Assembly (NCBI GenBank): GCA_013791705.1
Contig: VMTF01000060.1
Location: 1 to 32,419, forward strand
From: Sphingomonadales bacterium
Lineage (GTDB): Bacteria; Pseudomonadota; Alphaproteobacteria; Sphingomonadales; Sphingomonadaceae
Direction of reading: 5' to 3'
DNA: 32,419 bases
In this document: positions 3,198-32,199 of the stretch, piece after piece
Layout of the letters: each line of letters starts with the position of its first letter
Position numbering within the stretch: the stretch's first letter is position 1
The notes under the pieces: model-generated
What the model was told of the DNA's origin: nothing
The model's input: the letters and a program-made list of their open reading frames with translations, nothing else
Databases searched by the model: none
Made by a program: the position numbers and the translations under genes

Positions 3198-4187
3198 TCA
3201 GCGGCGCTCGATCCGGGTCTGCGGAATGGCCAGATCCTGCGCGTCGATCGTGCGATAGAGCAAGGCGCCGCGCCGCCGCCCGGTGGCGATGGCCGGACCG
3301 GCGAGGCCGGCGGCATCCGGCGCGAGCCGGATCGTCACCGCCCGATCCGGGCCGGTTCCGGCACCGCGATCGTCGATCCGGCCCAGCGCGGCATAGGGAG
3401 GCGGGAGCGGTTCGAGCCAGTGGGTATAAGCGGAAACCGACCACGTCGCGCAGGCCACCGCCGGGCGTTCGATCACCAGCACCTCGTCCTCGCCGAGATC
3501 GTAGTAGCCCGGATAGTAGTGCGTGCCGAGGTCGCCGAGGTAGGCGGCGGCGAGTTCCGGCGGAGGCGTGGTGAAGGCGTTGGGCGTTTCGGCCATGCGC
3601 GCGCTCCAGCGGGCGAACTGGCGCGCCATCGCGGCAACCCACCCGCCGGCCATGGCCAAATTCCTGTTCCCGGCCGGAAGCGGGAGCGCCGTGCCGTCCG
3701 CAAAAGTCAGGTGCATATCGGCGGGCCGCCGTCCGGGCGGGCGCAGCAATTCTCGCACCATCAGCAGGCGGGTGTTGCCGGTCGTCTTCAACTGGCCGTC
3801 CGGGCCGATATCGAGCGAAAAATCGCCCGTCCGGAACACGGTGTAATCTTCCAGCAGCAGCACGCCTTCCGGGGTGACCGAATAGGTGCCGACGCCCAGC
3901 CGCTCGACATCGTTGAGGCTGCCGGTGAGCCGGTAGCCGCGCCCCGGTTCGAGCGAGGCGAGCCACATCCGGTAATCGAGGAATGGCCCGCCGAGGCGCG
4001 GCCAGGCCCGCTTGAGACCGCTGCCCATGTCCTCATAGGCCAGAAATCCGTCGTGCAGCGCGGAGACGAGCAGCCGGGCCACATAGGGGCCGGCCTCTTC
4101 CGCCGCGAGCGGATCGGGCGCGGCGGCGCGCAGTTCGGCTTCGACATCGGCGAGCCCGCCGGCGAGCGCGCCCCAATCAAGCGTCAT
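3198..4187 (-). CDS. Uncharacterised protein cotranslated with sulfotransferase (possibly DUF1214-like)
   Basis: A 329-residue protein. I do not recognise it firmly. Segments such as GTYSVTPEGVLLLED, GNTRLLMVRELLRPPG and THWLEPLPPPYAALG recall the beta-rich DUF1254/DUF1214 proteins, but this is a weak resemblance from memory. There is no signal peptide or membrane segment. The ORF track runs on to 4499, but the extra part lies inside the sulfotransferase. The ATG at 4187 overlaps the last 11 nt of the sulfotransferase gene, which implies translational coupling. The partnership with the sulfotransferase is the best clue to its job. Confidence 0.8.
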   Translation of the reverse strand: MTLDWGALAGGLADVEAELRAAAPDPLAAEEAGPYVARLLVSALHDGFLAYEDMGSGLKRAWPRLGGPFLDYRMWLASLEPGRGYRLTGSLNDVERLGVGTYSVTPEGVLLLEDYTVFRTGDFSLDIGPDGQLKTTGNTRLLMVRELLRPPGRRPADMHLTFADGTALPLPAGNRNLAMAGGWVAAMARQFARWSARMAETPNAFTTPPPELAAAYLGDLGTHYYPGYYDLGEDEVLVIERPAVACATWSVSAYTHWLEPLPPPYAALGRIDDRGAGTGPDRAVTIRLAPDAAGLAGPAIATGRRRGALLYRTIDAQDLAIPQTRIERR

Positions 4188-5370
4188 GGGCGGACCTGGC
4201 CAGCCCTTGCGCCTCGCGCGGGATATCGAAGCGGCGCATATAGTCCCCGAAACGCTCGGCCACTTCATCGCCATCGAGCCCATAGTCCGCCAGCGCATAG
4301 GGGTTGCTGCCGCGCTTGCCCTTGGGGTTTTCCTGCCGCCAGCGGGTAACCGCATCGCGCACCGCATCAGGCGTATCGATCCCGAGCCCGGCATGGGCGC
4401 GCTCCATTTCGGCCATCGGCTCTTCGACCAGCCGATAGTAATCGATGTGGGCCACTTTCGCGCCATCTGGCGACGCATCGAAGCGCATGATCCCATCAAT
4501 GTGGCGCGAAATGAAGTGCAGCATTTGCGCGCCGACCACCCTGGGATCGCTGCCCTCGCTGCGCGGCGCGCGGAAGGTGTGGGTGAGCCGGCAGATCGAG
4601 GCGAGCACCTGCACCGGATCGCGGTGCGTCATCACGAAGCGCGCGTCGGGATGGGCCTCCACGATCTTGTCCAGCGCGACCACGTGGTTCGGATATTTGA
4701 GCGCCCACGGCTTTTTCGGCCCGCGCCATTGCAGCAACTGGAGCTGGCGTTTGTGCACGCGATAGGCTGCAGCAAAATCGGCGTGGTCCATCACCGTATC
4801 GAAGAACGTCGGCACGTTGAGGAAATTGTGAAAGCCGACCGCCGAGAAGGTCTGGCTGAGGAACATGTGGCATTCTTCCGACCCGGTGGGATCGGTGAGG
4901 TGCATCGCATCGAAATCTGGCACGAGATCGCGGTGGGCCTGGGTGCGCCCCACTTCCTCGGCGATGCGGCGGCGGACCGATTCGGGATCGGCGCCCGGCG
5001 GCGGCGAGGGATCGTTGGCTTCCCACGTGCGAATCAGCCGGAAGCGGGTGTCGCGATCGAACAGGTACTGGAAGTAGGTGGTGCCCGACCGCGGCAGGCC
5101 GGTCAGGAATACCGGGCGTTCGATTGGTTCGGCCAGGATTTCGGGATGTTCGGCCACCCATTTGAGCCCCTGCAGGCGGTGGGTGATATTGGTGATCAAC
5201 AGTTCGCGGGTGATCGCCACACCCGTTTCGTTCAGCCGCGCATCGCGGTTGATCCCATCGACCAGCGCATCGAGATTGCCCGCGAACAGTTCGCGTTCAC
5301 TGTCGGCAAAGCCGGCGCGGCGTTCGGCTTCGGCGTGGATGGCCGCAGCATTGAACGGCTGATTGCCCAT
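4177..5370 (-). CDS. Sulfotransferase (PAPS-dependent, Sulfotransfer_3 type)
   Basis: A 397-residue cytoplasmic sulfotransferase expected to move a sulfonate group from PAPS to a hydroxyl. The 5'-phosphosulfate loop is clear: FLTGLPRSGTTYFQ with GLPRSGTT at residues 91-98. The 3'-phosphate-binding part is seen in FVMTHRDPVQVLASI (about 245-259), with the expected Arg and Ser. The length is normal for bacterial members. The ATG at 5370 has GGGAG about 11 nt upstream. An 18-bp palindrome lies 49 nt upstream, directly after the TetR stop. The next gene overlaps its end by 11 nt. The acceptor is unknown. In a catabolic cluster the sulfate could mask, export or activate a hydroxyl. Confidence 0.93.
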   Translation of the reverse strand: MGNQPFNAAAIHAEAERRAGFADSERELFAGNLDALVDGINRDARLNETGVAITRELLITNITHRLQGLKWVAEHPEILAEPIERPVFLTGLPRSGTTYFQYLFDRDTRFRLIRTWEANDPSPPPGADPESVRRRIAEEVGRTQAHRDLVPDFDAMHLTDPTGSEECHMFLSQTFSAVGFHNFLNVPTFFDTVMDHADFAAAYRVHKRQLQLLQWRGPKKPWALKYPNHVVALDKIVEAHPDARFVMTHRDPVQVLASICRLTHTFRAPRSEGSDPRVVGAQMLHFISRHIDGIMRFDASPDGAKVAHIDYYRLVEEPMAEMERAHAGLGIDTPDAVRDAVTRWRQENPKGKRGSNPYALADYGLDGDEVAERFGDYMRRFDIPREAQGLARSAHDA

Positions 5371-9014: not shown

Positions 9015-9764
9015 TCAGCCCGCGAGCTGGCCCTGATCGACCCCGAGGCAACTGCCGTGAAGGTTGGGCGCCGCATCCGAAGCGGCGAACAGGATCATGT
9101 TGGCGATCGATTCCGGCTCGGCCATTTCCCGGAAGCCGTGATAGCGCACGATCAGGTCCATCTCCGCTCCTTCGGGCGGAACCACCACGCCGCCCGCCGT
9201 CATGGGCGTTTTCATGCCCGCCGGCGCGACCGCGTTGATCCGGACCGGCTTGTGCATGAATTCCATCGCCATCGCCTTGGTCATCCCGATCACCCCGGCC
9301 TTGCTGGCCGAATAGGGCACCATGTAGGCCTGCCCCTGGGTGCCCGCGCTCGACGCGACGTTGACGATCGCGCCGTTGCGTTCGAGCAGGTGCGGCAGCG
9401 CCGCCTGCGACAGAAAGAACAGCGCGCCGAGGTTGATGTCGATCAGCTTGTGCCAGCGCTGCGGCGTGACGTTCGCGACGTGATCCATCCAGGCGACGCC
9501 GGCGACGTTGCACAGCACATCGAGCTGGCCGAACCGCGCGACGGCCGCCGCGACGATATCGGCGCACTTGTCGAGCTGCGAAAGATCGGCGACGTGGCCG
9601 GCGGCCTTCGGCCCCAGTTCGCTGGCCACGGCCTGCACGCCTTCCTGCACGTCGACGAGGAAAACCGAGGCCCCGGCCGCGCTGAAGGCCGTGGCCGTGG
9701 CCTTGCCCAGACCCGAAGCGGCGCCGGTGACCAGCACGACCTTTCCGGTGAAATCAAGCTTCAT
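9015..9764 (-). CDS. Short-chain dehydrogenase/reductase (SDR 2)
   Basis: A 249-residue classical SDR. It has TGAASGLG (cofactor loop), LCNVAG in place of NNAG, the serine in NVASSAGTQG and YSASK. An aspartate after strand 2 (VFLVDVQE) favours NAD over NADP. The ORF track begins one codon early at TTG 9767. The ATG at 9764 follows GGAAGGG at a suitable distance. It lies 104 nt downstream of the class III CoA-transferase on the same strand and may oxidise a hydroxyacyl intermediate. Confidence 0.92.
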   Translation of the reverse strand: MKLDFTGKVVLVTGAASGLGKATATAFSAAGASVFLVDVQEGVQAVASELGPKAAGHVADLSQLDKCADIVAAAVARFGQLDVLCNVAGVAWMDHVANVTPQRWHKLIDINLGALFFLSQAALPHLLERNGAIVNVASSAGTQGQAYMVPYSASKAGVIGMTKAMAMEFMHKPVRINAVAPAGMKTPMTAGGVVVPPEGAEMDLIVRYHGFREMAEPESIANMILFAASDAAPNLHGSCLGVDQGQLAG

Positions 9765-9868
9765 CAAACGCCCTTCCCAAGGAGTGTGTTATGTTCTCTG
9801 GCGCGCGGCACCGGCCACTGCCGGTCACCGCAGCGGCCCCGCGCCACAGACGCGGGGCCGCGTGACGC

Positions 9869-11098
9869 TCAGGCGACGACGCCCTTGTTCTTGAGCTCCT
9901 CGATCCGGTCCCACTCGATGCCCATTTCCATCAGCACCAGTTCGGTGTGTTCGGACGGCTCGGGTGAGCGGGTCGTGTCGGTCGGCTCGTGATTGAACAG
10001 CACCGGCGCCGAAACCAGCTTCATCGGCTTCTGGCCTTCGCCCAGATCGACCTCGAAGAAGATGTCGTTGGCGATGATCTGCTCGTCCTGCGTAACTTCG
10101 AGCAGGTTCTGGTAGGGCGCCCATTGCCCGCGCAGGGTCTTGAAACGCTCGGTCCAGTAGGCCAGCGGCTGCGCGGCGATCGCCCGCGAAACCTCGACGC
10201 TGCCATCAACCCAGTTCGCCATCAGTCCTTCAGCGGTATTGAACCGTTCGTCCTGCATGAGCTCGGGTTTGCCGAGGTGCGTCCAGGTGTCCTCGAGATA
10301 CGGCCCCGGGGTCAGGATGGTGAGATTGAGGTGGCGGCCATCGGCGGTCTGGTAAACGCCGACGAAGGGATTGCCGCGCACGCCGCCGGAACCCGGCATC
10401 TTGGGCACGAACGGAATCTTGCCCGATTCCATCGCCATGGCGAGGCTCATGCCAAGCGCCCAGGCGCCCGACGAGAGCAGCGAAACGTCGAGTTCGACCG
10501 CTTCGCCGGTGCGTTCGCGGTGGTAGAGCGCGGCGCAGATGCCCCCGGCGATGTTGGTGCCGCCGATCGTGTCACCATAAGCTGGCCCGGGCTGGGTGAG
10601 CGGAGCCCCCAGTTCAGGCGGGGTGACTGCCAGGGACGAGCCGGCCCGCGCCCAGAACCCGGTCGAATCGAAGCCGCCCTTGGTGCGCTCGGCCCCCTTG
10701 TCGCCCAGCGCGCTGCCGCGGGCATAGATGATGTTGGGATTGACCGCCCGGATGTGCTCGAGATCGATCTTCAGCTTCTGGCGCTGATCGGGCAGGTAGT
10801 TGGTCAGGAAAACGTCGCATTCCTTGGCCATTTCATAGATCAGCGCCTGGCCTTCGGGCTTCGACACATCGATCCCGACGCTGCGCTTGCCGCGATTGGG
10901 GTGGGCCATCATCACGTTGCGGGCGGGGTCGACCGGCGCACCTTCGAGATTGATGAAACCGCGCTGCGCATCGCCGCGCACCGGATGTTCGATCTTGATC
11001 ACGTCCGCGCCCCAATCCGAGAGAATTGCGCCCGCGACCGGAACAAATGTAAACTGCGCGACCTCGAGAATGCGCACGCCCTGCATGACCTTGACCAC
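9869..11098 (-). CDS. Class III CoA-transferase (CaiB/BaiF family)
   Basis: A 409-residue family III CoA-transferase, which moves CoA between carboxylic acids without free acid release. Seen are GVRILEVAQ, DVIKIEHPVRGD, the NRGKRSVGIDVSKPEG region and an Asp in AVELDVSLLSSG (about residue 200) that fits the catalytic aspartate forming the acyl-anhydride. The ORF track adds over 270 upstream residues that are not homologous. The GTG at 11098 has GGAAGGG 6 nt upstream. The ATG at 11086 is the alternative but has poor spacing. It is divergent from the MFS exporter, and SDR 2 lies downstream. Confidence 0.92.
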   Translation of the reverse strand: MVKVMQGVRILEVAQFTFVPVAGAILSDWGADVIKIEHPVRGDAQRGFINLEGAPVDPARNVMMAHPNRGKRSVGIDVSKPEGQALIYEMAKECDVFLTNYLPDQRQKLKIDLEHIRAVNPNIIYARGSALGDKGAERTKGGFDSTGFWARAGSSLAVTPPELGAPLTQPGPAYGDTIGGTNIAGGICAALYHRERTGEAVELDVSLLSSGAWALGMSLAMAMESGKIPFVPKMPGSGGVRGNPFVGVYQTADGRHLNLTILTPGPYLEDTWTHLGKPELMQDERFNTAEGLMANWVDGSVEVSRAIAAQPLAYWTERFKTLRGQWAPYQNLLEVTQDEQIIANDIFFEVDLGEGQKPMKLVSAPVLFNHEPTDTTRSPEPSEHTELVLMEMGIEWDRIEELKNKGVVA

Positions 11099-11366
11099 GA
11101 TATACCCTTCCTTGGATCGATCCTCAGCAGCCGCACCTTGACGCCGGGGCGACCGGCCCCGGCCGCGCGCGGCCTGAATACTGCCGATAACCGCTTCCAC
11201 GCGAGGCGGCCATGGGCTTTTTTCGCGAAATCGCCGACATGATGTAATTTGCTGCAGTGCATCGTCCATCCGCAAGCAGGTGTTGCACCCGCGCCGGGAC
11301 TGTGATGAACGCAACGCAGCACCCGCAGGGGAGAGATGCCATGCGCGTGCAGGGGAGACTGGCCGA

Positions 11367-14156: not shown

Positions 14157-14181
14157 ACGCCGGTTGCGGCCGGCGCCGTTC
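14155..14181. terminator. Imperfect hairpin between convergent genes
   Basis: GAACGCCGG (14155-14163) can pair with CCGGCG plus GTTC (14170-14181) with a 2-nt bulge. It spans the 23-nt gap between the epoxide hydrolase and the DUF2889 gene. No T run is present, so a terminator role is only suggested by position. Confidence 0.3.
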
Positions 14182-14971
14182 AGCCGGCGAGGCCGCGCTC
14201 CTGCGCGACTTGCGCGATCCGTTCCGCCAGCGGCGCCGGACCGTCGCGATAATCGCGGACATCCATCGTGCAGGCGGCCTGCGGCGAGCGTTCGGGCTGG
14301 AAGGTGAAACAGGCGCCGACCGATTGCGGGATCAGATCGGCAGTCGGCACCACATCGTAGGAAAATCCGCGCCCGCCCGAGATGAAGACGGCGCGGCGCA
14401 GCACCCGCGCCCGTTCGCGTTCGACCGGGGACAGGTCGGCCTCCCAGACCTTGAGCTTGCGCAGCGACAGGCCCTGGCGGGGACCGGGCGAAACAATTAC
14501 CGAATCGCGCAGTTCCCAGACGATCTCGCGCTGGCCGTTGCAATAGAGTTCGGCGTGCTGGGTCGGTTCGGTCTCGTCGCTGGCAAAGCACGAATAAAGC
14601 GTCGGCGCATCGTCGAGCGCGTGGGCGGCGGCGAGCAGCGTCAGATCGTGCATGTGAGTGCAGTGCGAATAGGGGCTGTCGACTTCGGCAAGGGCGGCGA
14701 GCCGGGCGCCCTTCATGCGCTGACTGAGGTGGGTCGCCGCCAGCGGGCAGGTCGACCACGGCCAGCGCAGCGCCTCCGCCCTGAAATCGGTCACGAATGT
14801 GCCGTCGTGCTCGATTTCGACAGTGAACCGATGCATGTCGTCCTCCACATCGGCGCGGACCAGGCCGGGGCGGGGATCGATCAACTGGTTGCGGCGCAGG
14901 CCGCCTTCGCCGGGCCGGATCAGCAGCGGGCGCAAGGCGTCGGACGAATTGTCGGTGCCAGTTTCTGTCAT
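14180..14971 (-). CDS. DUF2889-family protein
   Basis: A 263-residue protein of the DUF2889 type. The recognisable core is DDMHRFTVEIEHDG, then RWPWSTCPLAATHL and CTHMHDLTLLAAAHA, with conserved Cys and His residues that could bind metal or act in catalysis. The function of the family is not known to me. It has no signal peptide. Its ATG overlaps the stop of the upstream alpha/beta hydrolase by ATGA, so the two are translated together. In this setting it may act on the same substrate as the hydrolase. Confidence 0.87.
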   Translation of the reverse strand: MTETGTDNSSDALRPLLIRPGEGGLRRNQLIDPRPGLVRADVEDDMHRFTVEIEHDGTFVTDFRAEALRWPWSTCPLAATHLSQRMKGARLAALAEVDSPYSHCTHMHDLTLLAAAHALDDAPTLYSCFASDETEPTQHAELYCNGQREIVWELRDSVIVSPGPRQGLSLRKLKVWEADLSPVERERARVLRRAVFISGGRGFSYDVVPTADLIPQSVGACFTFQPERSPQAACTMDVRDYRDGPAPLAERIAQVAQERGLAG

Positions 14972-15873
14972 GCCCAGGCCTCCAGCAAAGTGCGCAGCGC
15001 GGCGACGAGGGCCAGCGGCTGATCGACCATCACATGGTGGTAGGCTTCCGGAATGGCAATGAAGGGCGTGCCGGCCGGGGCCGTGTGCCGCATCCGTTGC
15101 TCCATCGCGCCGCCGCTCAGCCACGACCGTTCGCCGCGGATCAGCGCCAGCGGCACTTTGGCCCCGGCGAGGTCCGCCCAGGAATCGCCAAGGTCGCGGG
15201 CCTCCATCAGGCGCGGATCGAACCGCCAGGCAAAGTTGCCGTCATCCTGCCGGACCACGCCGAGCCGGGCGATGTAATCGGCGACATAGATGTTTTCGCA
15301 AGGCTGCGGCGGCGACAGGCGGAACCGGTCGAGCGCGGCGGACAGGGAGGGATAGGTGCGCCCGGTGTGACGCGGCGGTTTCGCGGTCATTTCCGGGCCG
15401 GGCAAGCCGGTATCGACGACGATCGCCGCGCGCAGCCGGTCAGGGAAACGCGCCGCGAGCCCGAATACCGGCATCCCGCCGGCCGAGTGCCCGATCATCA
15501 CCGGCGGCCCCGCCAGCAGCGCGCCGCCCGCCTCGGCGGCGGCCAGGCCTTCGCGAATGTAAAGCTCGGTGGAATAGGCGGCGCGCCGGTCCGAAGCGCC
15601 CATCCCGCTGAGCGAAAACGCCACGACCCGGTAGTCGGCGGCGAACAGCGGGGCGAGGAAGCTCCACCATCCCAGATGGGCGGCATTGCCATGGAAGAAT
15701 ACCAACCCCGGCTTGCCGCGTTCGCCCCACGCGCGGCAATCGATCGCCGCACCGTCGACCGTGACGCTATAACTCTCGAACGGGACGGCCAGCGCGCGGG
15801 TGAACCATTCCGGCGCGGGCGGGGAAGCGCCTTCCAGGCCGAGCAGCGGCGGCTCCATGTTGTCTTCAATCAT
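14968..15873 (-). CDS. Alpha/beta hydrolase 1
   Basis: A hydrolase of about 301 residues. It shows the oxyanion-hole FFHGNAAHLGWW, the nucleophile elbow GHSAGG near residue 128, and a late histidine in YHHVMVDQP. It should cleave an ester, lactone or C-C bond. The start is uncertain. The ORF track begins at 16011, but the sequence becomes hydrolase-like only later. ATGs at 15885, 15873 and 15858 are all possible, and I chose 15873, which has a G-rich stretch about 12 nt upstream. It overlaps the DUF2889 gene by ATGA and is divergent from the amidohydrolase pair. Confidence 0.88.
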   Translation of the reverse strand: MIEDNMEPPLLGLEGASPPAPEWFTRALAVPFESYSVTVDGAAIDCRAWGERGKPGLVFFHGNAAHLGWWSFLAPLFAADYRVVAFSLSGMGASDRRAAYSTELYIREGLAAAEAGGALLAGPPVMIGHSAGGMPVFGLAARFPDRLRAAIVVDTGLPGPEMTAKPPRHTGRTYPSLSAALDRFRLSPPQPCENIYVADYIARLGVVRQDDGNFAWRFDPRLMEARDLGDSWADLAGAKVPLALIRGERSWLSGGAMEQRMRHTAPAGTPFIAIPEAYHHVMVDQPLALVAALRTLLEAWA

Positions 15874-16179: not shown

Positions 16180-17379
16180 ATGAATCCCCTTCCTTACACC
16201 GTGTATGACGCGGACCATCACCTGTACGAGCCCGAAGAAGCCTTCACCCGCCACCTGCCGAAGGAATTTGCCCACGAATTCTACTTCGTGAAGAAGGGCA
16301 ACCGGACCAAGCTGGTCATCAACGGGATGCTCTCGGACTATATCCCGAACCCGACGTTCGAAGTGGTCGCCGCGCCCGGCTCGCACGAAAAGTGGTATCG
16401 CGGCACCAACACCGAAGGCCTGACCATGCGCGAGCTGTCCGGCCCGGCCCTGCGCCCGCCGCAGGAATGGCGCTCGGGCGATGGCCGCCTCGCCGTGATG
16501 GACCAGCAGGGCGTCCACGCCGCGCTGGTGTTCCCGACGCTCGCCTCGGTGATCGAGGAGCGACTCAGCGACAAGCCCAGGGCCATGGCCGCGTTGTTCC
16601 ACTCGCTCAACATGTGGACCGCCGAGGAATGGGGCTTCGCCCGTGAGAACCGCCTGTTCTCGGTGCCGATGATCAACCTGGCCGACGTCGACGCGGCGAT
16701 TGCCGAGCTGGACTTCGTGCTGAAGGCCGGCGCCCGCACGATCGGCATCCGGCCCGCGCCGGTCCCCAACGAACGCGGCCAGACCCGCTCGTTCGGCTAT
16801 CCCGAGTTCGATCCGTTCTGGGCGCGCGTCGCCGAAGCCGGAATCTTCGTGAACCTGCACGCCTCCGACTCGGGCTATGACGTGATCAACCGGATGTGGT
16901 CCGGCGGCGGCAACGAGATGATCGCGTTCGAAACCGACCCCCACAAGCAGACGCTCGACATGCTCGGCCGCGCGGTGGCCGACTCGCTTTCGGCGCTGAT
17001 CTGCCATGGCGTGTTCGCGCGCCATCCGAACCTGCGCGTCGTCTCAGTCGAGAACGGCGCAAGCTGGCTCGCACCGCTGTTCTTCCGCCTCAACCACGTG
17101 TTCGGCCAGATGCCCAAGGCCTTCGCCGAGCATCCGCTCGAAACGTTCCGCCGGCACATTTTCGTGGCCCCGTTCTACGAGGACAGCACCGAGGAGCTGA
17201 AGCAGTATATTCCGGCCAACCGGATTCTGTTCGGCAGCGACTTCCCCCACCCGGAAGGACTTGCGAATCCGCTTGACTACCTCAACGATTTCTCGACGTT
17301 CAGCGAGGGAGAGGTGAAGCAGGTGTTCCACAGCAACATGAAGGGCCTGCTTGAAGGCCTCCGCGACGAAGCAGCCTGA
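16180..17379 (+). CDS. Amidohydrolase_2 family protein A
   Basis: A 399-residue metal-dependent TIM-barrel protein of the Amidohydrolase_2 (PF04909) group, which includes ACMSD- and resorcylate-type decarboxylases and ring-opening hydrolases. The first metal-site strand is YDADHHLYEP. A central NLHASDSGY gives a further histidine, and GSDFPHPEG near residue 352 carries the catalytic or metal aspartate. GGAG lies about 9 nt before the ATG. The second copy follows after 30 nt. Whether it hydrolyses or decarboxylates cannot be told. Confidence 0.9.
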   Translation: MNPLPYTVYDADHHLYEPEEAFTRHLPKEFAHEFYFVKKGNRTKLVINGMLSDYIPNPTFEVVAAPGSHEKWYRGTNTEGLTMRELSGPALRPPQEWRSGDGRLAVMDQQGVHAALVFPTLASVIEERLSDKPRAMAALFHSLNMWTAEEWGFARENRLFSVPMINLADVDAAIAELDFVLKAGARTIGIRPAPVPNERGQTRSFGYPEFDPFWARVAEAGIFVNLHASDSGYDVINRMWSGGGNEMIAFETDPHKQTLDMLGRAVADSLSALICHGVFARHPNLRVVSVENGASWLAPLFFRLNHVFGQMPKAFAEHPLETFRRHIFVAPFYEDSTEELKQYIPANRILFGSDFPHPEGLANPLDYLNDFSTFSEGEVKQVFHSNMKGLLEGLRDEAA

Positions 17380-17409
17380 ACCATAACCCGAAAATTGAAA
17401 GGCCAGACC

Positions 17410-18741
17410 ATGAAGGCAGAAGATCTCATTATCGCCAGCGTCGACGATCATATCGTCGAGCCCCCGCACCTGTGGGACGCGCACCTCAGCGCTCAGCACA
17501 AGCATCTCGCCCCGAAAATGCTGCGTGACGAAAGCGGCGCCGATTTCTGGGTGTTCGAAGGACGCCGCGCGGCGCAGGGCGGCCTCAACGCCGTCGTCGG
17601 CCGCCCGCCCGAGGAATACGGCATGGAGCCGATCTCGCTGGACGAGATGCGCAAGGGCGTGTGGGATATCGATGCCCGCATCGACGACATGAACGTCAAC
17701 GGCATCCTCGCCTCGATCAACTTCCCCAGCATCCTCACCTTCGACGGCGGCCTGTTCCTCGGCTTCGAGAACAAGGAAAATGCCAAGATCCTGCTCTCGG
17801 CCTACAACGACTGGCACATCGACGAATGGTGCGCGAAGTATCCGGGCCGGAACATCCCCAACGCGATCGTGCCCTACTGGGATATCGACGCGACCGTTGC
17901 CGAAATCGAACGCGTCGCGAAGAAGGGCTGCCACGCGATCTCGTTCTGCGACAACCCCTCGGTCAAGGGCCTGCAGAGCATCCACGACGAATACTGGAAC
18001 CCGCTGTGGAAGGTCTGCGCCGATAACGAGGTGGCGATCAATATCCACATCGGTTCGGGCGCGCAGGCCCCGCACGCCTCGATGAAGTCGCCGATCGACG
18101 CCTGGATCACGACGATGCCGATTTCGATCGTCAATTCGGCGGCCGACTGGCTGCACCTGTCGGCACTGCAGCAGTATCCGCTGAAGATCGCCCTTTCGGA
18201 AGGTGGCATCGGCTGGATTCCGTACTTCCTCGAACGCGCCGACTTCACCAATGCGCACCACAGCGCCTGGACCCACGCCAAGACCAACTTCGGCAACAAG
18301 AAGCCGAGCGAAGTGTTCCGCGAACACTTCCTCACCTGCTTCATCGAAGACAAGTTCGGCCTCGCCAATCTCGAAGCCATCGGTGAGGACTTCGTTGCTT
18401 ACGAATGCGACTATCCGCACTCCGACACGCAGTGGCCTTACGTTCCCGAACACCTGTTCGAGACCGTGAAGCACCTGACCGACTCGCAGATCGACAAGGT
18501 CACGCACCTCAACGCGATGAAGTTCTACAACTTCGACGCCTTCGGGATGATGGGTGGACGCGAGAACTGCACGGTCAAGGCGCTGCGCGCGAAGGCCGCA
18601 CACGTTTCGACCGAACCGATGACCCAGAGCGGCGCCGCGCCGCTCAAGGCCGGCGAGCAGCCGCGCCGCGTCACCTCGGGCGACATCGTTGCGATGTTCG
18701 CCTCGGTGAACGCCAAGGACCAGGAGCGCGTCGACGCCTGA
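17410..18741 (+). CDS. Amidohydrolase_2 family protein B
   Basis: A 443-residue paralogue of protein A. It has SVDDHIVEPPHLWDAHL at the N-terminus, INIHIGSG in the middle and YECDYPHSDTQWP near residue 332. Compared with A it has a longer C-terminal tail. The ORF track starts at a TTG five codons earlier; the ATG at 17410 has AAAGG 8 nt upstream. A and B are almost certainly co-transcribed and end at a strong terminator 28 nt downstream. They may form a mixed complex or act on successive intermediates. Confidence 0.9.
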   Translation: MKAEDLIIASVDDHIVEPPHLWDAHLSAQHKHLAPKMLRDESGADFWVFEGRRAAQGGLNAVVGRPPEEYGMEPISLDEMRKGVWDIDARIDDMNVNGILASINFPSILTFDGGLFLGFENKENAKILLSAYNDWHIDEWCAKYPGRNIPNAIVPYWDIDATVAEIERVAKKGCHAISFCDNPSVKGLQSIHDEYWNPLWKVCADNEVAINIHIGSGAQAPHASMKSPIDAWITTMPISIVNSAADWLHLSALQQYPLKIALSEGGIGWIPYFLERADFTNAHHSAWTHAKTNFGNKKPSEVFREHFLTCFIEDKFGLANLEAIGEDFVAYECDYPHSDTQWPYVPEHLFETVKHLTDSQIDKVTHLNAMKFYNFDAFGMMGGRENCTVKALRAKAAHVSTEPMTQSGAAPLKAGEQPRRVTSGDIVAMFASVNAKDQERVDA

Positions 18742-18769
18742 TCCGCGTTGATAAGCTGAACAAGGAACG

Positions 18770-18799
18770 GGGGCCGCGCCGCAAGGTGCGGCCCCTTTT
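18770..18799 (+). terminator. Rho-independent terminator of the amidohydrolase operon
   Basis: An 11-bp stem with one G-U pair (arms GGGGCCGCGCC and GGTGCGGCCCC) closes a GCAA tetraloop and is followed by TTTT at 18796-18799. It lies 28 nt past the stop of amidohydrolase B and faces the convergent alpha/beta hydrolase gene. Confidence 0.9.
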
Positions 18800-18821: not shown

Positions 18822-19670
18822 TCAGGCCGGACGGACGTTCCGCTCAAGGAACGTGAACACCGCATCGTTGAACGCGTCGTTGCGGTCGCCCGCCACCATG
18901 TGATCCGCGCCGCCGACATTGACAAACTCGGCATGGGGCGCGAGCGCGAGAAACTCGTCGACGCTCTGCTGGCTGACCACCTGGCTCAGCCCGCCGCGCA
19001 CCAGCAAGGTCGGGATGGCAAGGCGCCGGGCAGCCTCCTCCAGCCGCTGCTGGCTGTGATTGACATCGAGGCTGCGGTTGCCGTTCCGCATATCCGGATC
19101 CCAGTGCCAGCGGTAGCGGCCGTCCTCACCCAGCCGCAGGTTCTTGCGCAGTCCCTCGACGCTTTTCGGCCGGGGGCGGTGCGGCAGATAGGCGCTCACC
19201 GCATCGGCGGCCTCCTCGAGCGAGGCGAACCCGTCCGGCGCGCTGAGCATGAACGCGCCGATCTGGCTGACCCCTTGCGGCTCGATCCGGGGGGTGACGT
19301 CAACCAGGACCAGGCCATCCACCGGCGAGGCCGTGTCCGGCTCGCCGGCCACCAGCAGGCCGGTCAATCCGCCGAGCGATGCGCCGACGATCGTCACCGG
19401 CCGGCCGAGCCCGGCAATCACCGCGCGGGCATCGGCGGCGTAGTCCTCGAACGCATAGTTGCGTTCGGGCGACCAGTCGCTTTCCCCGTGGCCGCGCAAA
19501 TCGATCGAGATCGCGTGATAGCCGCGCTCGGCCGCCTTGCGCACCGCGCGGCCCCAACTGTGCCGGGTCTGGCCGCCGCCGTGCATGAACAGGACGACCG
19601 GCGCGCCGGCGTCGCCCGCGACATCGGCCATGAGCGAAAGCCCGTGCCCCGCGAATTTCTGCTGCTTCAT
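18822..19670 (-). CDS. Alpha/beta hydrolase 2
   Basis: A 282-residue hydrolase with FMHGGGQTRHSWG (oxyanion hole), DLRGHGESDW, the elbow VGASLGGLTG near residue 95 and a C-terminal GGADHMVAGD that carries the histidine. The elbow is GASLG rather than the common GHSxG, a known variant. The ATG at 19670 follows GAGAGG at 7 nt; the upstream ORF extension is unsupported. It is the last gene of the crotonase operon, 48 nt behind the enoyl-CoA hydratase, and might act as a thioesterase or C-C hydrolase on the pathway product. Confidence 0.91.
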   Translation of the reverse strand: MKQQKFAGHGLSLMADVAGDAGAPVVLFMHGGGQTRHSWGRAVRKAAERGYHAISIDLRGHGESDWSPERNYAFEDYAADARAVIAGLGRPVTIVGASLGGLTGLLVAGEPDTASPVDGLVLVDVTPRIEPQGVSQIGAFMLSAPDGFASLEEAADAVSAYLPHRPRPKSVEGLRKNLRLGEDGRYRWHWDPDMRNGNRSLDVNHSQQRLEEAARRLAIPTLLVRGGLSQVVSQQSVDEFLALAPHAEFVNVGGADHMVAGDRNDAFNDAVFTFLERNVRPA

Positions 19671-19718
19671 CCTGATCCTCTCGCCTTGTTTGCGTGGCCC
19701 CGGCACTTTCGGCCAGGT

Positions 19719-20456
19719 TCAGTGCCCGTGGCGGAACTGGTCGATCCCGGCGAGCGCCTCGGCACTGTTCGCCACGGTCATGACTCCCTGGTGTTCCCGT
19801 TCCAACCCTTGTTCGAGCGGAAGCTCGCTCCCTTCGACCACCGCGCGCAGGATCGCCCGCCGCGCCGTTTCGCTCCCTTGCGAACAGCGCTCGGCCAGCG
19901 CCACCGCCGCCGCGACCGGATCATCGGCGACCGCATTGACCAGTCCGATTGCCGCGGCTCGCTCCGCTCCGATCATCTCGCCGGTCAGGGCCAGTTCGAG
20001 CGCCCGGCCGGTGCCGATCAGGCGCGGCAGCAATTGCGTGCCGCCATAGGCCGGCATCAGCCCGTGCGTGACCTCGGGCAGCCCGAGCCGCGCGGACGGT
20101 GCGGCGGTGCGGAAAGTGCAGGCCATCGCGATTTCAAGCCCGCCGCCCAGCGCCAGCCCATTGAGCGCGGCGACGCCCACCTTGGGGAAGCGCACCAGCC
20201 GCAGCACCAGCGCGTGCATCCGCCGCACCCGCGCACCGGCATCGCCGCCGCCGCCCTCCTTGAGATCGGAACCGACGCAGAATGCCCGGCCGGTGCCGGT
20301 GAGCACATAGGCCCGCACCGCATCGTCGGCCGCAATCCGCTCGAACGCTTCTTCCAGCGCCTCGACCATCGCCTCGTTCATCGCATTGAGTACCCGCTCG
20401 CGATCGAGCCGGACCAGCGCAATGCCGCCGCCGACAGTGGTGACTTCGAGCGTCAT
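19719..20456 (-). CDS. Enoyl-CoA hydratase (crotonase family, both Glu present)
   Basis: A 245-residue crotonase. The CoA-binding and oxyanion-hole segments (FCVGSDLKEG and ALNGLALGGGLE) are present. The two catalytic glutamates of rat crotonase have matches in GGGLE and LPEVTHG, so hydration of an enoyl-CoA is plausible. The ORF track starts at 20561; the ATG at 20456 overlaps the phosphatase stop by ATGA and gives a normal N-terminus. It belongs to the 24.0-18.8 kb minus-strand operon. Confidence 0.92.
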   Translation of the reverse strand: MTLEVTTVGGGIALVRLDRERVLNAMNEAMVEALEEAFERIAADDAVRAYVLTGTGRAFCVGSDLKEGGGGDAGARVRRMHALVLRLVRFPKVGVAALNGLALGGGLEIAMACTFRTAAPSARLGLPEVTHGLMPAYGGTQLLPRLIGTGRALELALTGEMIGAERAAAIGLVNAVADDPVAAAVALAERCSQGSETARRAILRAVVEGSELPLEQGLEREHQGVMTVANSAEALAGIDQFRHGH

Positions 20457-21250
20457 GCCAGCAGCTTTGCGCGAAGCCGGTCGCGCATCGCGGCATCCAC
20501 GCCGAGCACGCTTTCGAGGTAGCCTTCCGCCGAGCCGAACCGTTCGTCCAGCGATTGCCACATCCGCTGCAGGTATTCCTCCTCCACCCGCAGCAGCGCC
20601 TGCAGCGCGGCGACCGAAATTTCCCGCCCGTAAGTCTGCTGCATCCGCGCCTGGATGCCCGGCAACCGCGCGGCGATGTTGGCGGCGGTATTGGTGAGGA
20701 GAAAATCCTCCATCAGATCATCCGCGTGAACGCCCAGCGCGCGATGGGTGAGCGCCGCGAGCACGCCGGTGCGATCCTTGCCGGCCGCGCAATGGATCAG
20801 GATCGCGCCGTCGAGGTCGTCCAGCGCGCGAAAATAGCGGCTGTAGGCGACGACCAGACGCGGATCGAACGCCATCTCGCCATAAGTCTCGACCATGAAC
20901 CGGCGCATCGCGTCATGGCTGAAATCGCTCTGCTCGAAGGCGATGACATGGGGCGCCTTGCCGCGCGTCGCCGGATTGGAATCGGGCGCATCGACGACCG
21001 TGATCGGCAGCGCACCAAGCCACGTGCTGGGCTGTTCCTGCTGTTCGGAAGGATGACGCAAATCGGCCACGACCGTGATGCCAAGCTCCCGCAACCGGTC
21101 CGCATCGCCCGCGCTGGCCCGGCCATGATGGGCTGAACGGAACAGCCGGCCGGTCTTCACCCGCCCCCCGTCCTGCGTGCGCCAGCCGCCATAATCGCGG
21201 AAATTGTTGATCTCGTCATATTCGAGAACGCGTTGCCAGGCTTCGGTCAT
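20453..21250 (-). CDS. Tyrosine-phosphatase-like protein (CX5R)
   Basis: A 265-residue cytoplasmic protein with the phosphatase signature HCAAGKDRTG at about residues 153-162, and the N-terminal NFRDYGGWRTQDGGRVKTGR typical of the Y_phosphatase3 (PF13350) group. It should hydrolyse a phosphate monoester through a cysteinyl-phosphate; the natural substrate may be a protein, a phosphoinositide-like lipid or a small metabolite. Both ends overlap neighbours by ATGA (the flavoprotein upstream and a crotonase downstream), so it is locked into a catabolic operon. That placement is odd for a signalling enzyme. Confidence 0.92.
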   Translation of the reverse strand: MTEAWQRVLEYDEINNFRDYGGWRTQDGGRVKTGRLFRSAHHGRASAGDADRLRELGITVVADLRHPSEQQEQPSTWLGALPITVVDAPDSNPATRGKAPHVIAFEQSDFSHDAMRRFMVETYGEMAFDPRLVVAYSRYFRALDDLDGAILIHCAAGKDRTGVLAALTHRALGVHADDLMEDFLLTNTAANIAARLPGIQARMQQTYGREISVAALQALLRVEEEYLQRMWQSLDERFGSAEGYLESVLGVDAAMRDRLRAKLLA

Positions 21251-22191
21251 GGTGCCTCCAGGGGGTGCCGGGCGGCGAGCGCCGCGTGATATTCCCGCGT
21301 CAGGCGGGCGACGAGTTCGCCGGCCGGCAGCACGTCGTCGATCCCCGACACGCCTTGCCCGGCCGACCAGATTTCCTTCCAGACCTTGAGCGGCCGGCCG
21401 TCGGGCGCGGTTTCCACTTTCGGATGGCGCAGATCGAGCTTGGCCGGATCGAGCCCGAAGCGCCGCAGTGATGCGGTGAGGAAGCTCGCCGGCGTCCCGC
21501 TCATTGCGGCGGTGGCGACGACATCGGTGGAGCTCGCCGCCACCATCATGGCGTGATAATCGGGCTCGGCCCGGGCTTCGCCGGTCGCGATGAAGCGCGT
21601 GCCCATATAGGCAAAATCGGCCCCGGCGGTGACCGCCGCCGCCACATCGCGCCCGTCCGAAAGACAGCCCGCCAGGATCAGCGCCCCATCGAAGCGCTTG
21701 CGCGCATCGTGAAGGAAGGCGAACGGATTGAGCCAGCCGGTGTGGCCGCCCGCGCCGCCGGTCAACAGGATGATCCCGTCGACCCCCGCCTCGGCCGCGA
21801 TCTCGACATGGCGCGGCGTAGCGGCATCGTGGAACACCAGGCCGCCATAGTCGTGCACCGCCTTCACCACCTCGCGGTCGGCGCCGAACGAGGTGATGAC
21901 GAGCGGCACCTTGTGCCGGACGGTGACCGCCAGATCATCGGCGAGGCGGGCATTGAGTTTGGCCACGATCAGGTTGACGCCATAGGCCGCGTCGCCGGTG
22001 CGGCGGGCCGCCTCGATCTCGTCCAGCCAGCTTTCGTAGAGTTCGGTGGTCCGGGCGTTGAGCGCCGGGAACGTGCCGATCGCCCCGGCCCGCGACGTTT
22101 CGATGACCAGGCGCGGGTTCGAGACGAGCAGCATCGGGGCCGCGATCACCGGCACCTTGAGGCCGGGCAGCAGGGCGGGAGGGATGGTCAT
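21247..22191 (-). CDS. Nitronate monooxygenase-like FMN oxidoreductase
   Basis: A 314-residue TIM-barrel flavoprotein of the 2-nitropropane dioxygenase/nitronate monooxygenase family. It shows PVIAAPMLLVSNPRL at the N-terminus, the conserved GGAGGHTGW and the FMN-phosphate segment GADFAYMGTRFIAT. Family members oxidise nitronates, but relatives in catabolic operons often act as enoyl reductases or have unknown roles. Its stop overlaps the phosphatase start by ATGA and it begins 7 nt after the upstream crotonase. Confidence 0.91.
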   Translation of the reverse strand: MTIPPALLPGLKVPVIAAPMLLVSNPRLVIETSRAGAIGTFPALNARTTELYESWLDEIEAARRTGDAAYGVNLIVAKLNARLADDLAVTVRHKVPLVITSFGADREVVKAVHDYGGLVFHDAATPRHVEIAAEAGVDGIILLTGGAGGHTGWLNPFAFLHDARKRFDGALILAGCLSDGRDVAAAVTAGADFAYMGTRFIATGEARAEPDYHAMMVAASSTDVVATAAMSGTPASFLTASLRRFGLDPAKLDLRHPKVETAPDGRPLKVWKEIWSAGQGVSGIDDVLPAGELVARLTREYHAALAARHPLEAP

Positions 22192-22198
22192 CGCGGCC

Positions 22199-22999
22199 TC
22201 ACGTGTTGAACCGGGGCGCGCGGCCCTCGCGGAAGGCGGCGGCCGCCTCGGCCATGTCGCCGGTATAGCCGCACAGCAACTGGGTGCGGTTCTCGATCGC
22301 GCTGGCGGTGCGGATATCGGGCGCGGACAGCGAGGCGTAGATCACGTCCTTGCTCATCCGTACCCCGAACGCGGCATTGGCGGCGATCATCCGCGCGATT
22401 TCGAACGCGGTTTCGAGCAGGGCATCGTCATCGACCAGGCGCGAGAGCAGCCCGATGCGGTCCGCCTCCTCCGCATCGAAGCGGCGCCCGGTGACCAGCA
22501 GTTCGAAGCAGCGCGACAGGCCGACCAGCCGGGGAAACAGCCAGCTCATCCCGCATTCGCCGGCGGACAGCCCGATCCGGGCATTGGCGACATGAAACGA
22601 GGCGGAGCGCGCCGCCACGCGGATATCGCTGCCCAGCGTGATCGCAAATCCGCCGCCTGCCGCCGGGCCATTGACCGCCGCGATGATCGGCTGGCGCGCG
22701 CGGATCATCTTTTCGACGATCGTGGCCAATCGCTCCTGCATATCGAGCGCTGCCGCCACCGATGCGCCGCCGCTTGCCTCCAGCTCGGCATGGCTTTCCT
22801 TGAGATCGAACCCCGAACAGAAGCCCTGGCCGGCGCCGGTCAGCACGACCGCGCGCACCGACCGGTCGTTCACCAGCCGATCGAGGATCGCGTGGAAGTC
22901 CGCGATCCATTCGGCCGTAATCGCATTGTACCGCTCGGGCCGGTTGAGCGTGATCAGCCCGATCCCGTCTTCGGGCACCGTAAATTCCACTGCCGCCAT
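22199..22999 (-). CDS. Crotonase-family protein 2 (isomerase-like active site)
   Basis: A 266-residue crotonase with LTLNRPERYNA, FCSGFDLKES and VNGPAAGGGFAITLGSD. The first hydratase glutamate is alanine (GGGFA) and the second is absent (NARIGL). An acid in GECGMSW falls where PaaG-type isomerases carry aspartate before the TW(L)LPR segment. A double-bond isomerase or a hydrolase/cleavage role is therefore more likely than plain hydration. It sits 9 nt after the quinone oxidoreductase and 7 nt before the flavoprotein gene. Confidence 0.91.
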   Translation of the reverse strand: MAAVEFTVPEDGIGLITLNRPERYNAITAEWIADFHAILDRLVNDRSVRAVVLTGAGQGFCSGFDLKESHAELEASGGASVAAALDMQERLATIVEKMIRARQPIIAAVNGPAAGGGFAITLGSDIRVAARSASFHVANARIGLSAGECGMSWLFPRLVGLSRCFELLVTGRRFDAEEADRIGLLSRLVDDDALLETAFEIARMIAANAAFGVRMSKDVIYASLSAPDIRTASAIENRTQLLCGYTGDMAEAAAAFREGRAPRFNT

Positions 23000-23008
23000 T
23001 GCCTGCTC

Positions 23009-23983
23009 CTATCCGATTTCCAGCACGACCTTGCCGATCGACCGCCCCGATGCCGCCTCGGCCATCGCGGCCCGAAACTCGGCGAAGGGGAAGGTGGTGC
23101 CGACCGGCGGATGCATCCCTTCGGCCGCCCATTTGGCGAGGGTCGCGATGTTGCGGGCGGCGGCGGCAGGCTGCTTTTCGTGAAACTGGCGAATATCGAC
23201 GCCGACCAGCGCCGCGCCCTTCAGCAGCGGCAGGTTGGCCGGGAGCCGGGGGATCGGCCCACCGGCGAAACCGATCACCAGATGCCGCCCGCCCCAGGCA
23301 AGGCTGCGAAACGCCGGTTCGAACAGATCGCCCCCGACCGGATCGAAAATGACGTCCACGCCGCGCCCGCCGGTGAGCGCCTTGAGTGGCTCGCGCCAGC
23401 CCTCCACGGAATAGTCGAGCACGTCGTCGGCGCCGATCGAGCGGGCAAATTCGCGCTTGGCGGCGCTGGATGCCCCGGCGATCACCCGCGCACCGAGCTG
23501 CTTGCCGACCTGCACCGCCGCCGTTCCGACCCCGCCGGCCGCGCCAAGCACCAGCAGCGTCTCACCCGGTTGCAAGTGGCCGCGATCCCGCAGCGCATGA
23601 AGCGCGGTGGCATGGTTGGAAGGGAAACAGGCGGCCTCGGCGAAGCTCAGTCCCTCCGGCAGCAGTGTGAGTTCGCGCGGGGCGGCGATCACCTGTTCCG
23701 CGAGCAACCCGCCGAAGCGCGAGACAATCACCCGGTCGCCCACGCGGAATTGCGTGACGCCCGCGCCGATCGCCGCCACTTCGCCGCTCGCCTCGGTTCC
23801 GGGAACGAACGGCAGCGGCGGCTTGACCTGATAGCCGCCCGAACACAGCAGCGCATCGGCATAGCCGAAGCTGGCGGCGCGCAAGCGGACCCGGACCTCG
23901 CCGGGGCCGGGTTCAGGGACCGGGCGTTCGACCGGATGATAGACTTCGGGCGGCCCGAGCTGATCGGCGCTGACTACTCGCAT
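23009..23983 (-). CDS. NADPH:quinone oxidoreductase-like MDR protein
   Basis: A 324-residue medium-chain dehydrogenase/reductase without the structural zinc cysteines. Seen are the N-terminal FVPGTEASGEVAAIGAGV segment, the nucleotide-binding LVLGAAGGVGTAAVQVGK and a C-terminal IGKVVLEIG. In such operons these proteins often reduce an enoyl-CoA or quinone with NADPH. The ORF track begins at 24196; the ATG at 23983 has GGAAGAGG a few nt upstream and starts a normal MDR sequence. It is the first structural gene of the operon, 140 nt after TetR 3. Confidence 0.92.
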   Translation of the reverse strand: MRVVSADQLGPPEVYHPVERPVPEPGPGEVRVRLRAASFGYADALLCSGGYQVKPPLPFVPGTEASGEVAAIGAGVTQFRVGDRVIVSRFGGLLAEQVIAAPRELTLLPEGLSFAEAACFPSNHATALHALRDRGHLQPGETLLVLGAAGGVGTAAVQVGKQLGARVIAGASSAAKREFARSIGADDVLDYSVEGWREPLKALTGGRGVDVIFDPVGGDLFEPAFRSLAWGGRHLVIGFAGGPIPRLPANLPLLKGAALVGVDIRQFHEKQPAAAARNIATLAKWAAEGMHPPVGTTFPFAEFRAAMAEAASGRSIGKVVLEIG

Positions 23984-24123
23984 TGTACCTCTTCCGCCAA
24001 ACCGCGCCGCATCGCGACTGTCATTAGCTGCCGTTGGTGACGGCCTTTGTTCGCTGCGCCAACTTCGCGGGCCGACGCCAGCCCATCGATCACGTGCGCG
24101 ATCTTGCGCATTGTCCGCCCTGC

Positions 24124-27095: not shown

Positions 27096-27515
27096 ATGGA
27101 CGACATTGAAGCGATCAAGCAGCTCAAGGGCCGCTACTTCTATTACCTCGACATGAAGGACTGGGGCGCGTGGGGAGATCTCTTCACGACGGATGCGACG
27201 CTTGACGTCAGCGGCGAATATCCGGATGCCGCCGACCCCTCGCAATATGTGATATCCGGACGCGAAGCGATCCGCACGTTCGTTGCGCAGGCGGTGGAAG
27301 GGACCGTGACCGTTCATCATGGCCACATGCCGCTCATCAGCCTGGCGGGTTCCGACCGGGCCAGCGGCATCTGGGCGATGGAGGACAACCTGTTTTTCCC
27401 CGACGGCAGCCGGATGACCGGATATGGCCACTACCGCGAGGACTACAGCCGCGCCGACGGCACATGGCGAATCGCCCGGCTCAAACTGACCCGGCTGCGC
27501 GTGCTGCACGGCTAG
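27096..27515 (+). CDS. SnoaL-like / NTF2-fold protein 2
   Basis: A 139-residue SnoaL-like protein with DIEAIKQLKGRYFYYLDMKD, a central FTTDATLDVSG and the closing YREDYSRADGTWRIARLKL. These are the usual landmarks of this NTF2-fold subgroup. The ATG at 27096 is preceded by GGAGGAGG; the longer ORF from 26925 is not supported. It is only distantly similar to SnoaL-like protein 1. It converges with SDR 4 (19-nt gap). A dehydratase, isomerase or hydrolase role is possible. Confidence 0.87.
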   Translation: MDDIEAIKQLKGRYFYYLDMKDWGAWGDLFTTDATLDVSGEYPDAADPSQYVISGREAIRTFVAQAVEGTVTVHHGHMPLISLAGSDRASGIWAMEDNLFFPDGSRMTGYGHYREDYSRADGTWRIARLKLTRLRVLHG

Positions 27516-30972: not shown

Positions 30973-32199
30973 TTACTCCTTGATTTGTTCAAGTGATGCC
31001 TCAGGCGTACGCGACCACAGGCGCGCCGTCACGGACTGTTGTTCTTCCGCCTTGCGAAGCTGTTCGGCCAACCCTTCGGCCACCCGGCCCTTGCCGCGCT
31101 TTTTCAGTTCGGGAATGACGCGGGTGCCGAGCAGCTCGATCGACTTCATCACCGCTTCGTGCGGCAGGTAGCCGAAGTTCAGGTAGCACAGCACCTGATC
31201 GCCCCCGATTTCCTCGTAGCGCTCCAGCTTGCGGATGCATTCCTCCGGCGTGCCGACCACCACCATGTCCTCGCGATCGAACTCGGTGATGTCGAACTCG
31301 CCGCGCGCCTGGGCGGAAAGCAGCGGAAAGGCCTTTTCCTGCTCTTCGGGCGAGAGGTGCGCCATTTCCCACTTGAGGTGGAATTCGGCGAGGCCCTTGT
31401 ACCACCACCACATCGATTCCCACAGGCGGTTGGTCCCGAAGCTTTCGCGCGATTCGACGCAGTGGACCAGTGTGTAGGCGCCGACCTTGTTGGTGTGGAC
31501 CCCGGTCAGCGGGACGGCGTTCTGCTGCGCCTCGCGGTAGGCCGCGATCACCTTTTGCAGCGCATCGAGCGGCTGCATGATCGAGAAGCACAGCAGCCCG
31601 CAGCCGTTTTCACCGGCCATCGTTGCGCTAGACGGGGTCGCCGCCGCGATCCACGCCGGCGGGTGCGGAAACTGGTAGGGCTTGGGCGTGACCATCCGCT
31701 TGGGAAAGTCGAGATATTCCGAGTGTTCCTCGTAGTATTCCTGCTCCCACATGCCGACGACCGTGCGCGCGGCGGCCTTGAGCTTGTCCTTGCTCGCCGG
31801 GATATCGACGCCGAACGCGGCCTGCTCCATCGGGGTCGAGCGCCCCATCCCCCAGATCGCCCGTCCGCCCGACAGCAGATCGACCGTCGCGACCTTTTCG
31901 GCCACGCGCGCCGGATGGATGAACTCGTGCGGCATCAGCGCGACGCCGAAGCCGAGCTTGATGTTCTTCGTCACTTGCGAAAGCGCGCCGAGCACCACTT
32001 CGTTCGACGGCATGTGACTGCGGTTCTCGCGGAAATGGTGCTCCACGCACCACACCGCCTCGAAGCCCAACTGGTCCGCCAGGACGATCTGCGCAATGTT
32101 GTCCTTGTAGACCACGCGCTCGGCCGCGCGCTGCCCCCAGGGATGCGCACCGGCCCATGGGCGCGGCACGTCGAACTCGTAAAGGAGGCCCAGTTCCAT
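30973..32199 (-). CDS. LLM-class (luciferase-like) flavin-dependent monooxygenase
   Basis: A 408-residue TIM-barrel flavoprotein of the bacterial luciferase family. It begins MELGLLYEFDVPRPW and contains EAVWCVEHHF, VALMPHEFIHPARVAEKVAT, WGMGRSTPM and VVVGTPEECIRKL, all classic family landmarks. It uses reduced FMN (or F420 in some relatives) and oxygen. Related enzymes carry out Baeyer-Villiger oxidation, epoxidation or C-S cleavage. No flavin reductase is seen nearby. The ATG at 32199 has GGGAG 7 nt upstream. It is the first gene of an operon with SDR 5 and hydrolase 3. Confidence 0.93.
   Translation of the reverse strand: MELGLLYEFDVPRPWAGAHPWGQRAAERVVYKDNIAQIVLADQLGFEAVWCVEHHFRENRSHMPSNEVVLGALSQVTKNIKLGFGVALMPHEFIHPARVAEKVATVDLLSGGRAIWGMGRSTPMEQAAFGVDIPASKDKLKAAARTVVGMWEQEYYEEHSEYLDFPKRMVTPKPYQFPHPPAWIAAATPSSATMAGENGCGLLCFSIMQPLDALQKVIAAYREAQQNAVPLTGVHTNKVGAYTLVHCVESRESFGTNRLWESMWWWYKGLAEFHLKWEMAHLSPEEQEKAFPLLSAQARGEFDITEFDREDMVVVGTPEECIRKLERYEEIGGDQVLCYLNFGYLPHEAVMKSIELLGTRVIPELKKRGKGRVAEGLAEQLRKAEEQQSVTARLWSRTPEASLEQIKE

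Follow-up and report, generated by a model that had tools for sequence, protein, structure and literature searches.

The operon around the phosphatase gene

The window, i.e. the whole stretch of 32,419 nucleotides from a Sphingomonadales bacterium that we analysed, carries the genes listed in Table 1. Six of them follow one another on the reverse strand in the order ADH-ECH2-NMO-PTP-ECH1-ABH2, with successive gaps of 9, 7, -4, -4 and 12 bp, and we infer that they are co-transcribed. The operon thus extends on both sides beyond the three genes NMO-PTP-ECH1. A strong hairpin terminator closes it, and two amidohydrolase genes (AMH1 and AMH2) on the far side of this hairpin are convergent to it.

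Table 1. Positions in the window of the operon genes and of the neighboring features
Feature	Position	Strand	Remarks
AMH1 + AMH2, two amidohydrolase-2 proteins, convergent to operon	16180..18741	+	PF04909
Hairpin terminator between convergent operons	18769..18796		12-bp stem, 10 GC pairs, TTTT tail
ABH2, alpha/beta hydrolase, last gene of operon	18822..19706	-	PF00561 E 8e-24
ECH1, crotonase	19719..20456	-	PF00378 E 2e-45
PTP, HCxxGKDR-type phosphatase (PF13350 Y_phosphatase3)	20453..21250	-	265 aa, ORF intact
P-loop codons HCAAGKDRTG	20765..20794	-	residues 153-162; Cys154, Lys158, Asp159, Arg160
NMO, nitronate-monooxygenase-family (2-nitropropane-dioxygenase) flavoprotein	21247..22191	-	PF03060 E 3e-29
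ECH2, second crotonase	22199..22999	-	PF00378 E 2e-48
ADH, quinone-oxidoreductase-type MDR dehydrogenase, first gene of operon	23009..23986	-	PF00107/PF13602/PF08240; also TIGR02824 PIG3, below cut-off

A first, sequence-only reading of this DNA had described a CX5R protein bound by ATGA overlaps at both ends to crotonase and flavoprotein genes. This is what we found: the stop of NMO overlaps the start of PTP (ATGA, 21247-21250), the stop of PTP overlaps the start of ECH1 (ATGA, 20453-20456), and the three products match PF03060, PF13350 and PF00378. The ORF list lets ECH1 begin with a GTG at 20561; its true start is the ATG at 20456. The same reading spoke of beta-oxidation genes; the label is loose, as neither an acyl-CoA dehydrogenase nor a thiolase was recognised among the operon genes. 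We took 39 stretches from related genomes as controls; in these, a gap of -4 separates 28 of 212 same-strand neighbor pairs (13%) and occurs at both ends in 3 of 133 same-strand triples. Taken alone, the double ATGA overlap exceeds chance only weakly.

The rest of the window is also catabolic in character; the genes noted there (at 3198-4187, 4177-5370, 14180-14974, 27096-27515 and 30973-32100, among others) include a sulfotransferase, a weak DUF2889 match, SnoaL, a luciferase-like monooxygenase, a CoA transferase and an epoxide hydrolase. The source bacterium probably degrades complex carbon compounds.

Family and fold of the phosphatase

The product of PTP is a predicted cytosolic cysteine phosphatase of the HCxxGKDR/PF13350 PtpB-like family. 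It matches the Pfam profile PF13350 from position 2 to 239 of 240 (E 6e-64, 216.7 bits against a cut-off of 22.2), and it is the only PF13350 protein of the source genome. Its P-loop, HCAAGKDRTG, carries the signature HCXXGKDR[TA]G which defines the "atypical lipid phosphatases" (PMC3091653), and the residues H153, C154, A156, G157, K158, D159, R160, T161 and G162 are invariant in 26 relatives. No signal peptide is evident when the N-terminus is judged by eye. The AlphaFold (AF2) model has a pLDDT of 92.4. Searched with Foldseek, it retrieves the C. difficile PTP 8dhj (E 1e-16) and M. tuberculosis PtpB 2oz5 (E 7e-15, TMq 0.77), while PTPs outside this type reach a TMq of at most 0.39.

With MptpB/PtpB (Rv0153c) and with the enzymes of Listeria and Leishmania (PMC3091653) PTP has in common the PF13350 domain, the exact P-loop and the catalytic Cys, Lys, Asp and Arg; the fold agrees with that of PtpB (TM 0.70-0.77), but the identity in the structural alignment is about 29-31%. 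Unlike this group, the window protein, known here from its sequence and its model, belongs to a sphingomonad catabolic operon. The solved structure nearest to it in both sequence and fold is that of the C. difficile PTP (8dhi/8dhj), a Firmicute enzyme with about 28% identity. Pho16B, a PTP-phytase from a soil metagenome which dephosphorylates many small molecules (PMC6409689), also has the PF13350 domain, the signature HCXXGKDR[TA]G and an environmental origin; it differs in being secreted (it has a signal peptide) and in its size, 38 kDa.

Conservation of the operon

We looked for the flavoprotein-phosphatase-crotonase order in related genomes, as the sequence-only reading had proposed, and it is not unique: it recurs in Sphingobium wenxiniae (loci L112/L032; the ORFs of all relatives' loci were predicted by a simple codon-usage script). 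There the order is ADH-ECH2(truncated)-CMD-NMO-PTP-ECH1, convergent with AMH2-AMH1, and both PTP junctions are again -4. The protein identities with the window are 70% for ADH, 77% for NMO, 56% for PTP, 68% for ECH1, 84% for AMH1 and 79% for AMH2, and the two PTPs form one clade in the tree. The shared order of ADH, NMO, PTP and ECH1 together with the two -4 junctions is, in our reading of the two sequences, better evidence than the overlaps themselves. Unlike the window, S. wenxiniae has no ABH2, and it has genes for an APH kinase, TauD and GntR upstream in the same direction. Its ECH2 is cut to about 100 aa and is followed by an overlapping PcaC/CMD-like gene (L112:10158-10870); the window has no CMD.

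The operon is rare. Our search covered three partly overlapping samples, with 401 genomes from the family, 196 from the genus and 94 from the genus to which S. wenxiniae belongs (about 690 genomes). It gave close copies of NMO (at least 72% identity) in just two genomes besides that of the window, hence 3 copies in total. The other copy is in a congeneric genome, G030 (locus L119), which keeps ADH, NMO (9450-10385) and ECH1 (10460-11197); PTP is absent. Between NMO and ECH1 one finds instead a 21-codon ORF (10398-10463) which overlaps ECH1 by ATGA and ends in PEWIRERLLT and a stop, resembling the C-terminus of PTP (LIREKLLS and a stop in S. wenxiniae). An equally good match to the PTP end occurs in 16 of the 11,016 ATGA-ending peptides of the compared loci (p ~0.0015), and some of these 16 may themselves be genuine PTP ends. 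The small ORF looks like a relic of the last codons of PTP, which would have been deleted there. A truncated CMD relic also lies upstream of NMO in G030, and the simplest reading of the three loci is an ancestral operon that included PTP and was pruned piece by piece. PTP is therefore not obligatory when NMO and ECH1 are present.

When the genes of the window are compared pairwise with those of S. wenxiniae, PTP has a dN/dS of 0.33 and its operon partners have values of 0.10-0.24. This means that PTP is still constrained by purifying selection, though it is the loosest of the set. We also considered the Brevundimonas/Caulobacterales PTPs (42-49% identical) as a guide to the window operon; their neighbors are different and themselves conserved, and they were uninformative. 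A locus of this Brevundimonas type in a record titled Pseudanabaena biceps (L042) groups with Caulobacterales and is probably assembly contamination.

Genomic contexts of the relatives

The linkage to small-molecule kinases was tested because relatives of PTP on plasmids of S. macrogoltabida (L239) and N. resinovorum (L240) had been found beside "phosphotransferase family" genes. Of 79 accessory PF13350 genes, 17 have an APH or EcKL gene at a distance of up to 6 kb; of 79 control points taken about 40-80 kb away from the PTP genes, 5 do (p=0.005). For APH alone, the counts are 14/79 and 5/79 (p=0.024). With the limit set at 3 kb, the excess is weak (p 0.03-0.2, depending on the threshold). The p value is approximate, because part of the set (40 PTP and 39 control regions) had been seen earlier with fewer kinase queries, which then gave 5 versus 1, because the EcKL model was added after we had seen the loci L033 and L165, the second of which belongs to the test set, and because near-copies do not count as independent cases. 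PTPs with a linked kinase are dispersed over several lineages of the tree; some of them are near-copies of each other, and 62 of the 79 accessory PTPs have no kinase nearby. In 201 genomes the strong APH homologues are mostly away from PTPs, and by eye only one strong kinase of the L254 type lies near a PTP in the genome sample. Hence, the linkage is partial.

Both of the closest relatives of the window PTP are associated with a kinase. In S. wenxiniae, the APH gene (L112, 14646-15773) stands in the same run of genes as PTP, and in a Betaproteobacteria MAG of the same clade (L033) an EcKL gene lies 1.2 kb downstream of PTP. We found no kinase gene in the 32-kb window, so that any partner kinase would need to be encoded at another site; the source genome has 9 PF01636 matches.

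Among the other kinase-associated relatives are compact operons of a DUF7064-type gene, a small protein, APH and PTP (L254:5992-9494 and L153:5995-9465), a locus where APH and PTP stand together (L165), and Sphingobium WTD-1, with a "phosphotransferase family" gene 11.5 kb from the PTP relative. A set of DUF7064/DUF7065-type, 160-aa uncharacterised, APH and PF13350 proteins recurs in L254, L153 and L239:1-4753, in an order that varies among sphingomonads. Two further operons combine a MaoC hydratase, PTP and a quinone oxidoreductase, one with -4 overlaps at both PTP ends (L183:5063-7241) and one with short gaps (L186:4974-7280), and both are divergent from APH-SDR-SDR genes. They are analogues of the window operon in content, with a non-homologous hydratase.

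A general linkage of PF13350 genes to acyl-CoA genes was rejected: within the same family, 9 of the 40 accessory PF13350 genes have such a gene at a distance of up to 4 kb, against 12 of 39 control points. Since PTP was lost in G030 and this linkage does not hold for the family at large, the description of PTP as "locked" into its operon was too strong. Contexts in the family are very varied (trxB, M20 peptidase, alpha/beta hydrolase, ECH). Relatives of about 40% identity are often beside a trxB-like gene (Pyr_redox domains in 18 of the 56 neighbors scanned), an annotated plasmid relative (L150) occurs with an acyl-CoA dehydrogenase, and on plasmid RPME01 of M. petroleiphilum PM1 (L241:1367-4792) the phosphatase gene directly follows those of a Rieske oxygenase and a VanB-type reductase. 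A 399-aa neighbor of PTP in many congeneric genomes, taken by eye for an acyl-CoA dehydrogenase, is a peptidase M20 according to Pfam. Actinobacterial PTPs lie within RpiR-regulated ABC-transporter operons (L246:7932-9693 and L247:7935-8705), in the first case adjoining a phosphodiesterase; these loci probably serve to take up a phosphodiester or a phosphate sugar and to dephosphorylate it. Adjacent PF13350 genes also occur, as a tandem pair with a spacing of 3 bp in one congeneric genome (L133) and in G482, G530, G452, G464 and G476.

Proposed role and alternatives

Our tentative preference, which we would not put higher than a leading candidate, is that PTP is an accessory phosphatase acting on a phosphorylated small metabolite of the pathway. 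It would be translated together with the other genes of this rare catabolic operon of sphingomonads, as an accessory member. A small-molecule kinase of the APH/EcKL type, encoded outside the window if it exists, would phosphorylate an alcohol or acyl intermediate, and PTP would strip the phosphate from this small intermediate, or from a dead-end product, by the usual steps involving a Cys-phosphoenzyme and an Asp acid/base. The family, the fold, the intact catalytic residues, the order in S. wenxiniae, the dN/dS of PTP and the kinase enrichment speak for this role, and so do the kinases of S. wenxiniae and L033, the MaoC-PTP-quinone oxidoreductase and ABC-transporter operons of other relatives, and the broad small-molecule activity of Pho16B. 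Against it stand the window without a kinase, the many accessory PTPs which have none, the near-copies among the positives, the strong APH homologues that are mostly away from PTPs, the weak signal at 3 kb, and G030, which keeps ADH, NMO and ECH1 without PTP.

The main rival, which we consider somewhat unlikely, is that PTP is a promiscuous or housekeeping phosphatase with no dedicated step in the pathway, a passenger whose ATGA overlaps reflect ordinary gene packing. Overlaps of -4 are indeed ordinary, the contexts of PF13350 genes are very varied with no enrichment of acyl-CoA genes, and PTP is both the fastest-evolving gene of the operon and the one deleted in G030 while NMO and ECH1 were retained. 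A mere passenger is however harder to reconcile with an order and junctions kept between two genera at a dS of about 1, with intact catalytic residues and with the enrichment of PF13350 genes beside kinases.

The PtpB fold and P-loop, as well as the public records, which annotate relatives as tyrosine-protein phosphatases, would also suit a regulator, i.e. a tyrosine/serine phosphatase setting the phosphorylation state of the operon enzymes or of a sensor. We regard this as improbable: the neighborhood of PTP showed no recognisable gene for a protein kinase, and the relatives are found in operons for transport or catabolism, together with small-molecule kinases or with a phosphodiesterase. The sequence-only reading had left the choice between a metabolic and a regulatory role; the metabolic one is better supported, by the kinases of the relatives and by their phosphodiesterase/ABC operons, and the regulation of pathway enzymes is unsupported.

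More speculatively, PTP might be a lyase, the fold being used to expel phosphate from a tertiary or gamma-phosphoester made by a kinase and to leave an alkene (ATP-dependent dehydration). Such chemistry is known for 25-hydroxysteroids and for 4-hydroxyacyl-CoA (PMC8449060, PMC12440821, PMC11342911). In the steroid route the 25-hydroxysteroid kinase belongs to the phosphotransferases; the enzyme after it, 25-phosphosteroid lyase, had no assigned gene in 2021 (PMC8449060) and was still called putative in 2024 (PMC11061730); ACAD10/11 follow the same logic on 4-hydroxyacyl-CoA (PMC12440821, PMC11342911). In both routes a kinase of the phosphotransferase family activates an alcohol toward acyl-CoA breakdown, but no PTP-fold enzyme is assigned to either in the literature cited here, and the likeness to the window is one of logic alone. 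PF13350 genes do occur with APH kinases and hydratases. We nevertheless judge a lyase very unlikely, as the elimination from 4-phosphoacyl-CoA is known to be carried out by an acyl-CoA dehydrogenase and not by a PTP, no gene close to that of the steroid kinase was reported as a candidate for the lyase (PMC8449060), the P-loop is of the hydrolytic phosphatase type, and the window has no kinase. Equally unlikely is the broader proposal that PF13350 proteins of catabolic operons might be the second half of an ATP-dependent dehydration or activation, APH/EcKL phosphorylating a recalcitrant alcohol or hydroxyacyl-CoA and PTP, as lyase or phosphatase, expelling the phosphate. If it were true, PF13350 would be a candidate family for gene-less steps such as 25-phosphosteroid lyase.

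Significance for the family

The characterised HCxxGKDR phosphatases have been discussed mostly as virulence factors. Judging from the window, the operon of S. wenxiniae and the kinase-phosphatase clusters that recur elsewhere, many of the environmental members may well act in metabolism, on small molecules. In M. tuberculosis, ptpB presumably adjoins fadE2, which we left out of the evidence. Either role, metabolic or regulatory, had first been called unusual, and this was overstated: the genes listed as required for growth of M. tuberculosis on cholesterol include that of the best known PF13350 protein, Rv0153c (PMC6429209, PMC10598944), which gives a link of the family to lipid catabolism a precedent. 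Returning to the role of metabolite phosphatase, we note finally that it offers a direct target for assays and a possible reason why ptpB is listed as required on cholesterol.
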